This document shows, piece by piece, positions 2,475-64,000 of a DNA stretch of 64,000 nucleotides. The notes under the pieces are model-generated. The model worked only from the letters and a program-made list of their open reading frames with translations, did no database searches and was not told the DNA's origin. Position 1 is the stretch's first letter; the number at the start of each line of letters is the position of its first letter. Source of the stretch: Oscillospiraceae bacterium (GTDB lineage: Bacteria; Bacillota; Clostridia; Oscillospirales; Ruminococcaceae); NCBI GenBank assembly GCA_017536625.1, contig JAFXGY010000050.1:19545-83544 (forward strand). Reading direction: 5' to 3'. The position numbers and the translations under genes are program-made.

Positions 2475-2530
2475 GCCTTCCCAGAGGGGAAGGTGGCAAA
2501 GCTGAAAGCTTTGACGGATGAGGGATTATA
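2475..2530 (+). repeat. Structured dispersed repeat, copy 1 (half-element)
   Basis: CCTTCC(2476-2481)/GGAAGG(2488-2493) forms the first hairpin, followed by TGG and a second hairpin CAAAGCT-GAA-AGCTTTG (2497-2513), then ACGGATGAGGGATT. This is the same architecture as the copies near 62.6 and 63.9 kb, but with a different second stem. Confidence 0.7.
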
Positions 2531-9892: not shown

Positions 9893-10150
9893 ATAAATTA
9901 TTGTTTAGCAAAACAACCTCCCTTGTCAAAGGAGACTCCCCTATTAGGGGAGATGTCATCGCAGATGACAGAGGGGTCTGCCGTCTGCGGCGAGCAAGGG
10001 GGACCATCGCCATTTTGGCGATGGTGGAGGGATTCATAACAAAAACATCGGTATTTAAAGAAAGAATCCCCCAGTCTTTTTTAATCGCAAGCGGTTAAAA
10101 AATCCAGCCCCCTTTAACAAGGGGGCTTAATAAAATAAACAATAATTTAT
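9893..10150. mobile_element. MITE-like structured element with 15-bp terminal inverted repeats (copy 2)
   Basis: The 258-bp unit starts with ATAAATTATTGTTTA (9893-9907) and ends with its exact complement (10136-10150). The similarity extends inward to a CCTCCCTTG/CAAGGGGGC motif. Inside are several hairpins (CTCCCCTATTAGGGGAG, TCATCGCAGATGA, CATCGCCATTTTGGCGATG, AAGCGGTT region) and a pair of facing GGAGGGATTC/GAATCCCCCAGTC blocks. No open reading frame codes for a transposase. The same 15-mer begins the element at 63860. This fills the 375-base gap between mgtE and the CarD-like gene. Confidence 0.75.
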
Positions 10151-12720: not shown

Positions 12721-12763
12721 AAAAAGGTGAAAAGCGCCTTTGCGCTTATTCATAAATTAAATA

Positions 12764-12901
12764 GTTTCGGGGCAGGGTGAGAATCCCTACCGGCGGTGAT
12801 GCGGCTTTGCCGATGAGTCCGAGAGCTTGACAGCAAGAACGGGTGAGAATCCCGTACCGACGGTGTTCGCAATTTTTTGCGTTAAGTCCGGATGGCGAAA
12901 C
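12764..12901 (+). promoter_or_regulatory. FMN riboswitch (RFN element)
   Basis: Canonical RFN blocks in order are 'TTCGGGGCAGGGTGA', 'AATCCCTACCGGCGGT', 'GAGTCCGAGAGC', 'GGGTGAGAATCCCGTACCGACGGT' (split motif) and 'AGTCCGGATGG'. The P1 helix GTTTCG (12764-12769)/CGAAAC (12896-12901) closes the aptamer. It controls ribU by premature termination when FMN is abundant. Confidence 0.97.
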
Positions 12902-12914
12902 TGCGTGAAGAAAA

Positions 12915-22096: not shown

Positions 22097-22173
22097 TGGT
22101 GCGCTGCAAGGGACTCGAACCCCTGGCCTACTGATTCGTAGTCAGTCACTCTATCCAACTGAGCTAGCAACGC
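22097..22173 (-). tRNA. tRNA-Arg (anticodon ACG), CCA encoded
   Basis: The acceptor stem GCGTTGC/GCAGCGC (one G-U pair) closes a cloverleaf with D-loop 'AGCTCAGTTGGA', anticodon arm ACTGA-CTACGAA-TCAGT (anticodon ACG) and T-arm with GGTTCGAGTCC. The 3' end has A discriminator and encoded CCA. It lies 85 bases downstream of the MFS gene on the same strand and has its own terminator. Confidence 0.95.
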
Positions 22174-26525: not shown

Positions 26526-26640
26526 AAGCGCCCCTTGTCAAAGGGGAGAGGGCCACGAAGTGGCGAGGGGATTCATAAAAAAGAATCCTTCCACCGTGCC
26601 ATACGGCAACGATCCCCCTCCCTTTAGGCAAGGGAGGCAA
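26526..26640. repeat. Structured dispersed repeat, copy 3, inside the glycolytic operon
   Basis: CCCCTT-GTCA-AAGGGG (26531-26544 region), GCCACGAAGTGGC, then GAGGGGATTC facing GAATCC. A second half follows with CCGT/ACGG and CCTCCCTT/AAGGGAGG hairpins. It fits exactly between the tpiA ribosome site and the pgk stop, so the operon is not interrupted. The intercistronic RNA would fold strongly. Confidence 0.7.
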
Positions 26641-45504: not shown

Positions 45505-45662
45505 GGCTTGGCTCCACCGACAGGGGAGCTGTCATCGAAGATGACTGAAAGGTTTTGAATCCGGATAAATTTTGATAAGCGTTCCGTGTAACCCGCTAAT
45601 TCCTCATTCGTCTTTTTTGCCTTTGGCAAAAAATCCACCTTCCCCCGGGGGGAAGGTTTTTT
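45505..45662. repeat. Structured dispersed repeat, copy 4 (degenerate)
   Basis: Contains GGCTCCACCGACAGGGGAGC-type, GTCATCGAAGATGAC and CCTTCCCCCGGGGGGAAGG hairpins. Read on the minus strand, the right half (GGAAGGTGGA ... GACGAATGAGGAATTAGCGGGTTAC) resembles copy 1. It occupies much of the 485-base gap between gdhA and yifB; the remainder holds the two promoters. Confidence 0.55.
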
Positions 45663-55220: not shown

Positions 55221-55271
55221 CAATCCCTCAGTCTGCTTCGCAGACAGCTCCTTTTACACAAGGGAGCCTTA
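55221..55271 (-). repeat. Structured dispersed repeat, copy 5 (half-element, inverted)
   Basis: AATCCCTCA-GTCTGC-TTC-GCAGAC-AGCTCC...GGGAGC reads on the minus strand as hairpin 1 (GGCTCCCTT..AAAGGAGC) followed by hairpin 2 and TGAGGGATT. It lies 18 bases upstream of the yabB-like gene. Confidence 0.65.
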
Positions 55272-62565: not shown

Positions 62566-62620
62566 AAGCCTCCCTTGCCTAAAGGGAGGTGGCATTTGCA
62601 AAGCAAATGACGGAGGGATT
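62566..62620 (+). repeat. Structured dispersed repeat, copy 6 (half-element)
   Basis: TAAG-CCTCCCTT-GCCT-AAAGGGAGG-TGG-CATTTGC-AAA-GCAAATG-ACGGAGGGATT. Identical in plan to 63881-63934, but with a different second stem. Confidence 0.75.
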
Positions 62621-62630
62621 CTGCTAAAAC

Positions 62631-62653
62631 GGGCGGATATTATCCGCCCCTAC
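62631..62653. repeat. Dispersed palindrome GGGCGGAT..ATCCGCCC, copy 2
   Basis: GGGCGGATATTATCCGCCCC followed by TAC; it differs from the copy at 2562-2583 only in the centre. Confidence 0.7.
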
Positions 62654-62682
62654 TGTAGGAAACGGTCTTGACTGTTCCAAAA

Positions 62683-62716: not shown

Positions 62717-63787
62717 TTATACGATAAGTTCGTATTCGCCGGTGCCGTCGTCGCCGTTGTAATAATCCCAAAGTTTGTCGCCGTCATAAATTCCTTTATC
62801 GGTAACAAATCCGGTAACAAGTTCCGGCGGGGTTTTGTCGAATGCGGGATAGAATCCGTTTACGCCTTCAACGGCGGTGCGGGTTCCAAGCGCTTCAAGA
62901 ACAAGGTTCGGGTCGCGCTCTTCGATTTTGACGTCCTTTGCGAAGGGGTGGCATTTATCCGGGGTGCCGGTTACATAGAAAGGAATTCCCCAATATTTTG
63001 CCGCAAGAGCGATTTGGAAAGTGCCGACTTTGTTGATTACAACGCCGTCCATGGTAATTGCGTCCGCCGCGCAGGTGAAAACGTCAACCTTCTTTTCGTG
63101 CATGGTCCAGCCGGGCATATTATCGGTGATGACGGTTACGTCAAATCCCATATCATGAAGAACGGAAGCGGTAAGGCGTGCACCCTGGAAATAAGGTCTG
63201 GTTTCGGGGCAGACGAATTTGATTTTTTTGCCCTGGGCTTTGATTTCCTTGCACATGAAGCCAAGGATGGTTTCGGCGTAGCACTGGGTCATAACGGTGC
63301 CTTCATCCGGGAATTTGGAAACAAGGTGTTTTGCAACTTCACCGATTTTGTTATAGCGGTTATCGGTAAGGGCGATAATGCGGTCGAAAGTTGCCTGAAT
63401 AGCATCTTTTTCGCCGGCTGCAAAAGCTTCTTCCGCCGCGGCAACGCAGGAATCGGTGATGATTTTGATGCGTTTTGCGGTGGTGGGTCTTGCGTTGACT
63501 ATAAGATCCTGAGCATAGCGGATATGCTCCATTGCTTTGTCATAAGGCATATCTTTTGCTTCATAAGCGGCAAGGACGATTCCCATTCCGCAGGCGAGAT
63601 AGGGACCTGCGCTCTGGACTATCATATCGCGCATGGCGTTCGCAACTTCCTCGGAAGTGTTGCAGGTTACGAATTTGATGGGATGGGGATAGCATCTCCG
63701 GTCAAGAATACGGACTTTTCCGTCCTCGTACCATGCTACGTTTTCATAACGGAGAAGGAAGGCAAGGCCTTCGTCGGCTCTGGGCAT
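62717..63787 (-). CDS. MtnA-like aldose-phosphate isomerase (eIF2B alpha/beta/delta superfamily)
   Basis: The 356-residue protein has the isomerase motifs 'MTQCYAET' (catalytic Cys), 'PETRPYFQGARLTAS' (in part), 'VITDNMPGWTM' and 'NKVGTFQIALAAKY'. The catalytic Asp motif reads 'CAADAITMDG', where methylthioribose-1-phosphate isomerase has GADRI..NG; the Asp is kept but Arg is lost. No methionine-salvage genes are nearby, so a related substrate such as ribose 1,5-bisphosphate is possible. AAAGGAGT precedes the ATG. Confidence 0.82.
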   Translation of the reverse strand: MPRADEGLAFLLRYENVAWYEDGKVRILDRRCYPHPIKFVTCNTSEEVANAMRDMIVQSAGPYLACGMGIVLAAYEAKDMPYDKAMEHIRYAQDLIVNARPTTAKRIKIITDSCVAAAEEAFAAGEKDAIQATFDRIIALTDNRYNKIGEVAKHLVSKFPDEGTVMTQCYAETILGFMCKEIKAQGKKIKFVCPETRPYFQGARLTASVLHDMGFDVTVITDNMPGWTMHEKKVDVFTCAADAITMDGVVINKVGTFQIALAAKYWGIPFYVTGTPDKCHPFAKDVKIEERDPNLVLEALGTRTAVEGVNGFYPAFDKTPPELVTGFVTDKGIYDGDKLWDYYNGDDGTGEYELIV

Positions 63788-63859: not shown

Positions 63860-64000
63860 ATAAATTATTGTTTATCCTATTAAGCCTCCCTTGTGTAAAG
63901 GGAGGTGGCACGGCAAAGCCGTGACGGAGGGATTGTCTATACATCATGATTTGATAGGATTACAATCCCCCAGTCATCTTCGATGACAGCCCCCTTTGCA
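63860..64000. mobile_element. MITE-like structured element, copy 7 (cut by window end)
   Basis: Begins with the same 15-mer ATAAATTATTGTTTA (63860-63874) as copy 2. It continues TCCTATTAAGCCTCCCTTG, hairpin 1 (CCTCCCTT/AAAGGGAGG), TGG, hairpin 2 CACGGC-AAA-GCCGTG and ACGGAGGGATTGT. After a spacer comes an inverted half, ACAATCCCCCAGTCATC-TTC-GATGACAGCCCCCTTTG. The distal terminus lies beyond the window. Confidence 0.75.

Follow-up and report, generated by a model that had tools for sequence, protein, structure and literature searches.

The repeat unit at the right-hand end of the DNA analysed here contains two hairpins, the second of which changes its letters from copy to copy and yet keeps its pairing. 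The locus thereby raises the question of what such a unit preserves, and whether it acts as DNA or as RNA. The window, meaning the whole 64-kb stretch that was analysed, belongs to the draft genome of an Oscillospiraceae bacterium (1.90 Mb, 60 contigs) and ends at a contig end. Its repeat features are as follows (R1, match of the covariance model described below; hp1 and hp2, first and second hairpin).

63863..63874 (contig 83407-83418), + strand: outer terminal inverted repeat AATTATTGTTTA of a MITE-like composite, based on AATTRTTGTTTA copies against a reversed control
63885..63905, + strand: hp1, consisting of CCTCCCTT, loop GTGTA and AAGGGAGG; duplex of the proposed triplex
63909..63923, + strand: hp2, variable hairpin CACGGC-AAA-GCCGTG, at the position of triplex loop 2
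63926..63934, + strand: third arm GGAGGGATT, mirror of the hp1 purine strand
63964..64000, - strand: facing partner unit with third arm TGGGGGATT, hp2 GTCATC/GATGAC and a truncated hp1
62568..62621, + strand: unit with hp2 CATTTGC-AAA-GCAAATG, adjoining the preceding gene's terminator and a GTAG-type palindrome (R1)
55221..55268, - strand: T-type unit with hp1 GCTCC.., hp2 GTCTGC-GAA-GCAGAC and third arm TGAGGGATT (R1)
26528..26574, + strand: BoxC-like unit GCGCCCCTT..AAGGGGAGAGG (GCGCCCC), hp2 GCCAC-GAA-GTGGC, GAGGGGATT (R1)
26583..26638, - strand: partner facing the unit at 26528 (R1)
9896..10147, no strand assigned: complete composite of 252 bp with terminal repeats AATTATTGTTTA and TA at each flank
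9932..10000, + strand: unit inserted into another unit's hp1 (AGACTCCCC..GAGCA), with an approximate end (R1)
10064..10126, - strand: GCCCCCTT-type unit on the right side of the 9896-10147 composite (R1)
2475..2528, + strand: unit of the CCTTCCC subfamily, hp2 CAAAGCT-GAA-AGCTTTG (R1)
45505..45560, + strand: decayed unit recognised by reading of the letters, limits approximate, no R1 match at E<=0.001

The partner unit at 63964..64000 is cut because the contig ends at its position 83544, which is position 64000 of the window. The preliminary description had assigned seven loci to one consensus. The exact arrangement CCTCCCTT/AAGGGAGG-TGG-stem-ACGGAGGGATT was found at two of them (62568-62621 and 63884-63935), and the other five comprise subfamily variants with altered hp1 and third arm, one interrupted unit and one decayed unit. 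The interrupted unit is the 9911 locus, into which a nested unit is set (9934), with a partner at 10064 on the - strand. All six variable stems that had been quoted are present in the window. The tail motif alone, with at most one mismatch, matched three times in the window and is not above chance, as 17 of 100 shuffles also reached three.

Fifty units, each with a different hp2, served to build covariance model R1, which matched eight times in the window at E<=0.001, covering six of the seven loci. At the same threshold, 295 units were detected in 61 stretches of the same genome (456,381 bases), which were chosen around known matches, so that unit density there does not represent density in the whole genome. 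Over the whole genome at least 149 matches were obtained with 150 of 1279 candidates scored, and the true number is higher. The pattern CCTCCCTTN{2,14}AAGGGAGGTGG had 36 exact copies genome-wide compared with 0 for a reversed-pattern control. Counts of dimers, gene context, strand, own-genome base pairs and unit types were based on 290 of the 295 matches, the five lowest-scoring being omitted. Contigs C1, C15, C22, C53, C55, C58 and C60 begin or stop inside repeat units, which indicates that the draft assembly is broken by the repeats and that copy numbers are likely underestimated. Rfam returned no match to the repeat units of the window; its only matches there at gathering score were an FMN riboswitch and a tRNA (12759-12906 and 22100-22173).

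The family is distributed beyond this genome. Thirteen of the 14 other genomes of the genus carry 8-142 units by R1, and one carries none. The latter, G011, is 97% complete and has neither an R1 nor a Y1 match; its protein identity at a tested gene is 68%, and it may serve as an outgroup for repeat gain and loss. Outside the genus, R1 matched in 11 of 26 sampled members of the family and order, and an even draw across the phylum gave at least 7 matching genomes of 398 at E<=1e-4 (a lower bound, with 14 candidates scored per genome). A pattern scan of 84,980 species genomes found at least 118 stretches; among the matches listed (80) were Clostridia, Oscillospiraceae, Eubacteriales, Ruminococcus, Gemmiger and others, many from animal gut metagenomes.

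The variability of hp2 was evaluated in copies retrieved by a search pattern that left hp2 free and fixed hp1 and the third arm, whose invariance in this set therefore carries no meaning. Among 147 copies, 108 distinct hp2 sequences were present, with perfect outer stems of 2 to 11 bp, and hp2 occupied 11-28 nt between the conserved flanks (140 copies). Across 50 of these copies, 96.5% of cells were paired and 106 two-sided changes were counted, against a shuffled mean of 29.4 (sd 4.4); one-sided wobble cells numbered three. The covariation score was 0.360 compared with 0.066 after shuffling, none of 500 shuffles scored as high, and no slid register came close. The original claim that hp2 alters its sequence and keeps its pairing thus withstood the covariation test: pairing is kept while letters change, so structure rather than sequence persists.

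Two further relations were overlooked in the preliminary description, namely, a third arm that mirrors hp1 and a rule governing which units face each other. The mirror relation was tested on 510 matches picked by adjacent hp1 and hp2 alone, with hp1 stems of 7-10 nt by design. They were clustered into 28 hp1 classes, none containing another; some classes are chance hairpins, which were kept in the observed and the permuted sets alike. Mirror identity between the third arm and the hp1 purine strand was 0.723, against 0.594 (sd 0.018) in permutations, and no permutation of 2000 reached it; related copies are not independent, clustering merely reduces kinship, and several supporting classes are single copies. 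Reading the third arm as a direct repeat was rejected as weaker than the mirror, though it is itself above permutations (identity 0.613 versus 0.571 over the 28 classes, reached by 19 of 2000). Watson-Crick pairing between the third arm and the pyrimidine arm of hp1 was also rejected, since the reverse complement matched at 2.14-2.34 of approximately 8 positions and the mirror at 5.4-5.7 (raw means).

Mirror examples, given as hp1/third arm, include AAGGGAGG/GGAGGGATT, AAGGGGGG/GGGGGGATT and GAGGGAGC/TGAGGGAGAG, together with the single-copy cases AAAGGAGG/GGAGGAATT and GGGAGAGG/GGAGAGGG. In G356, a genome of another family, hp1 GAGGGAGG is paired with third arm GGAGGGAG, and hp1 GAGGGGGG is accompanied by a G-run ending in AG. 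Imperfect mirrors also occur: AGGGGAGG is found mostly with GGAAGGG, and GGGAAGG with GGATGAGGG. In the 20 family-like classes, an hp1 G lies opposite G 82 times, A 12, C 3 and T 0, and an hp1 A lies opposite A 36 times, T 11 and G 1; hp1 C was opposite C 4 times, T 2 and A 1. Holder et al. (2015, PMC4666352), in their account of intrastrand triplexes, give the triad code as AAT/GGC/TAT, and the G-G, A-A and A-T facing counts fit these triads.

This arrangement has the geometry of a class II intrastrand DNA triplex in which hp2 takes the place of loop 2, the folding being predicted from the letters. BoxC/PIT/TM_ECO elements, as described by Holder et al. (PMC4666352), resemble the units in that one strand bears a pyrimidine arm followed by two purine arms, of which the third arm is mirror-like and obeys AAT/GGC/TAT triads; many dispersed copies and inverted pairs are also common to both. 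The units present three arms on one strand with such triads (subfamilies deviate) and stems within the class II range of 6-15 nt, mostly 7-9 nt in R1 matches. Loop 2 differs: in TM_ECO it is 3 nt, TTA or CCG, according to the same article, and in the units it is a structured variable hairpin of 11-28 nt plus flanks rather than a short loop. The published motif searches described there allowed loops of 1-6 nt (ITxF) and 0-10 nt (Hoyne et al., cited in Holder et al. 2015), so the family, whose hairpin loop 2 exceeds these limits, falls outside both. As also reported in PMC4666352, CD and NMR demonstrated a TM_ECO triplex in vitro, and DMS footprinting in vivo did not support a stable one. The main text of that article contains no word beginning with Clostridi or Firmicutes. 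We do not count the family as a BoxC/PIT/TM member because the short loop is missing and its folding is known from sequence only. No description of the family was found among the papers listed by searches of open-licence full texts, including searches for clostridial repeats, and a literature search by unit sequence gave no bacterial-repeat paper among the matches listed. The three-arm order is already known from BoxC/PIT/TM, and what appears to be new is a triplex-type unit with a variable hairpin as loop 2.

The explanation we favour, and consider moderately probable, is that the family is a DNA-level interspersed repeat whose unit of approximately 50 nt folds as a single strand, the mirror purine arm forming an intrastrand triplex with hp2 as the connecting loop. 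One strand reads, in order, pyrimidine arm, purine arm, hp2 and mirror-image purine arm. When this strand is exposed as a single strand during replication, repair or transfer, its third purine arm would lie antiparallel in the groove of hp1, giving putative purine-motif triads G·GC, A·AT and T·AT, and the gap between the hp1 duplex and the third arm could be spanned by the two strands at the foot of the hp2 hairpin. Only the shape of hp2 would matter in such a triplex, which would explain why its letters drift as paired changes. Units would spread singly, nested, as heterodimers and in some cases within a MITE-like element of approximately 190 bp with TA-like target sites.

The strongest alternative holds that a Y1 (RAYT) or DDE transposase mobilises an ordinary family of the REP-like or MITE kind, with the hairpins as recognition shape and the third arm as part of a binding site. 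It deserves consideration because the genome contains two Y1 transposase genes, because composites have terminal repeats and TA-like sites, and because the hp2 foot in many units reads TGG-stem-GACG, resembling CGTC-tagged REPs. In the description by Di Nocera et al. (2013, PMC3733652), these REPs have 8-9 bp stems, form four families and are given neither a mirror arm nor a first hairpin. The complement of many G-type units does read CGTC-stem-CCA around hp2, and dimers are common in both; tag and CCA tail are absent from T-type units and from the GGGGACC subfamily, and the hp2 stem covers 2 to 11 bp rather than 8 or 9 bp. The text of PMC3733652 has no word beginning with Firmicutes or Clostridi. 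GTAG REPs with RAYT/TnpA_REP, from the same article, are likewise short palindromic interspersed repeats with dimers and Y1 genes in the genome, but their characteristic GTAG tag is absent at the hp2 foot of the units. Although Y1 genes are present here, unit number does not track them: G003 has 94 units and no Y1 gene, G007 has 41 and none (both genomes are <90% complete), and G010 has 8 units and two Y1 genes. The genome's own Y1 genes carry GTAG-type palindromes in frame, and a mirror relation tracking hp1 is not predicted by this alternative, which we therefore regard as unlikely.

Several observations concern these palindromes. The two Y1 (RAYT-like) genes of contig C51 (L031, 1288-1791; L032, 1276-1791) each contain two inverted in-frame copies, which flank the MPNHIH (HUH) motif. 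Palindrome GTAGGGCGGGGGCTTGCTCCCGCC encodes VGRGLAPA in L031 and VGRGIAPA in L032, and its inverse encodes AGASPRPT. GTAG-type palindromes (CGGGCGGATATTATCCGCCCCTAC) also adjoin units, at approximately 62630-62655 of the window and in L005 and L023, which suggests that the two repeat families are clustered.

Movement and exchange of units were examined at two gaps in genomes of the genus. The gene at 62720-63787 has a match in 15 of 15 genus genomes. Upstream of it, the window composite occurs only in its own genome, a different composite (ends AAATTGTTGTTTA) occurs in G005, and no composite was found in the other 13 relatives (420 bases each). Downstream, the stop codon is followed by differing units or by the terminator alone; a unit stands immediately after the same terminator (..TTATAAG|CC) in five of the ten genus genomes where the convergent gene's terminator was found. 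These five units belong to two subfamilies, with hp2 CATTTGC in G000 (the present genome), CGTCGCC in G012, CATTTGC in G001, CAAAACC in G008 and another in G013, and they would be explained if the site is a hot spot for insertion or if units replace one another there. Downstream of the gene, an insert of approximately 100 bp lies, in G009 (L295) and G002 (L299), in the hp1 loop of units that are intact in G012 (L302). At a second gap, G003, G004 and G001 have hp2 ACCGCC/GGCGGT, whereas G002 has GTCAGCC/GGCTGAC; the gene-side flank and hp1 type are common to all, and the entire hp2 block therefore differs at an apparently single site. In-place exchange or repeated hot-spot insertion may have produced this difference, and either fits. 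The window composite was present in none of 12 relative loci with a readable region at this gap, and no clean empty site with target duplication was found at the two gaps across same-genus genomes.

Nesting was recurrent. Five sites in the searched DNA of this genome, and one in G001, have the nested unit (AGACTCCCC..GAGCA) at the same position within the hp1 of its host unit. This variant has a 3' tail hairpin (..GTCTGCCGTCTGCGGCGAGCA; window 9932-10000, L222, L231, L279, L282 and, in G001, L300) and sits after the (A)AGG of the hp1 purine arm, with an apparent loss of one or two G at the junction.

RUP-like elements are MITEs with TA targets, and MITE-like features were also observed here. 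Some composites lie inside an element of approximately 190 bp with 12-bp terminal inverted repeats AATTATTGTTTA; AATTRTTGTTTA has 73 genome copies compared with 6 for a reversed-pattern control, and TA stands on both sides of 10 of 20 complete composites. Many units must lie outside composites, given 20 complete composites and 295 units. That many copies face an inverted partner, as first described, holds across the larger set: the 130 neighbour pairs at <=150 nt divide into 91 whose 3' ends face each other, 32 in tandem and 7 whose 5' ends do so. The facing units are seldom alike, as none of the 91 pairs share the same hp2 and two share the same hp1 arm. In 72 distinct composites, the same hp1 arm occurred in two, against 10.6 expected (sd 2.6, minimum 4 of 2000), the comparison being by fixed letters; the pair CCCCCTTG/GCCCCCTT is identical if shifted by one base, which would raise the count to three. 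Of 86 distinct composites, 75 set an hp1 purine strand ending in G opposite a C-ending or BoxC-like one, where random pairing would give 42.1 (sd 4.7, maximum 57 of 3000), the partner being C-ending (third arm beginning with T) in 67 and BoxC-like in 8; the BoxC-like units were merged with the C-ending type post hoc, and G with C-ending alone accounts for 67 of 86. Two readings fit: a loss of perfect palindromes, or a composite whose left and right ends are distinct.

The second possibility leads to a bolder reading, which we consider improbable: a transposon of single-strand DNA could have the units as its left and right ends, in pairs, recognised by their triple-helix shape. The hp1 purine strand would end in G at one end and, usually, in C at the other, and an enzyme would read the triplex and the hairpin of free sequence. 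If this were true, the element could change nearly all of its letters and stay mobile.

An RNA reading was implied by the proposal to examine short stable RNAs and strand and position relative to gene ends, and it was not supported. A structured RNA family (an sRNA, a 3'UTR element or a terminator-like element) selected for RNA folding would be consistent with the strong hp2 covariation, with the position of some units immediately 3' of a terminator, and with the location of 239 of 290 units outside ORFs of >=100 aa (51 inside, compared with 75% of random positions). The pairs themselves argue for DNA. The 127 distinct hp2 from 211 distinct units of the genome contain 1008 Watson-Crick, 13 G·T, 4 A·C and 84 other pairs, so that G·T accounts for 13 of 1109 (approximately 1%), compared with 34 of 423 (8%) in 20 distinct tRNAs of the same loci, which have 389 Watson-Crick pairs and, apart from G·T, no other kind. 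In the pattern set, 100 distinct hp2 gave 600 Watson-Crick, 5 G·T, 2 A·C and 24 other pairs, 80 of the 100 being perfect; the scan that selected adjacent hp1 and hp2 demanded perfect Watson-Crick stems and was left out of these wobble counts.

The loops are of a DNA type. GNA triloops were found in 49 of 78 hp2 triloops in the genome and in 41 of 57 in the pattern set, where GNNA accounted for 20 of 35 tetraloops, UUCG for none of the 35, and the closing pair was C-G in 82 of 100. According to PMC4686876, in its passage on such hairpins, GNA and GNNA loops on G-C pairs form unusually stable DNA mini-hairpins. The inverse triloop TNC occurred in none of the 78 hp2 triloops of the genome, which argues against frequent loop inversion and suggests that the functional strand is the one with the order pyrimidine arm, purine arm, hp2, purine arm. 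No gene-strand bias was detected among the 82 units between tandem genes (45 on the gene strand, 37 opposite). Gene ends were not preferred either, since units in tandem, convergent and divergent gaps (82/49/44, with 64 locus-edge units unplaced) approximately follow the intergenic bases (31225/16200/14738). Replication-strand bias was likewise absent by local GC skew (77 versus 79 units; singletons 20 versus 23) in the 156 of 290 units located in loci of >=3 kb with skew >=0.02. Wobble-tolerant covariation and transcript-strand bias, the marks of a structured RNA, are thus missing; the window units have no Rfam match, and the mirror relation has no Watson-Crick sense in RNA. Overall, the evidence favours DNA over RNA as the level at which the unit probably acts, and we doubt the RNA reading strongly.

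The tracking of hp1 by the third arm might instead be a by-product of pairing between the third arms of facing units, which would form a central stem preserved by inverted-repeat maintenance. Facing third arms are indeed roughly complementary (GGAGGGATTC / GAATCCC..). However, third arms in heterodimers follow their own hp1 and mismatch the partner, as in CCTCCCTT-GGAGGGATT facing GCCCCCTT-TGGGGGATT, which speaks against partner pairing as the cause of the tracking, and units with no facing partner within 150 nt (108 of 290) belong to the same types; this explanation is very improbable. A G-quadruplex motif can be practically dismissed, for although G-type units have several GG or GGG runs and triplex sequences rich in G are able to fold into quadruplexes as well (PMC4666352, in its discussion of such sequences), T-type units of the GGGAGC..TGAGGG form have just two GGG runs, and a quadruplex has no need of a mirror relation or of a pyrimidine arm.

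Under the favoured intrastrand triplex, the manner in which hp2 changes can also be considered. The article on TM_ECO notes that triplex DNA can arrest polymerase (PMC4666352), and the triplex knot may likewise stall DNA polymerase at a unit. Template switching or exchange between units could then copy or swap hp2 as a paired block, and a switch across hp2 would make one side the template for the other. Complementary C-G to G-C swaps distinguish some near-identical copies, and complementary double transversions such as CACC/GGTG versus CAGC/GCTG occur between near-identical copies in two subfamilies, which counts for template switching. The absence of an inverted GNA loop counts against it, as do the differences within near-identical pairs, where 14 one-sided stem changes (a few in the closing or loop region) exceed 5 two-sided ones; ordinary mutation with selection can therefore explain hp2 without template switching.

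The family would be a natural case of repeats whose proposed DNA triple helix has covariation support across species, beyond composition. Compensatory mutations in it offer a clear test of whether intrastrand triplexes are important in living cells, which the work in E. coli did not settle. The hairpin at loop 2 further suggests that motif searches with short loop limits may undercount such motifs. The family also offers a handle on how palindromes change both of their sides together.
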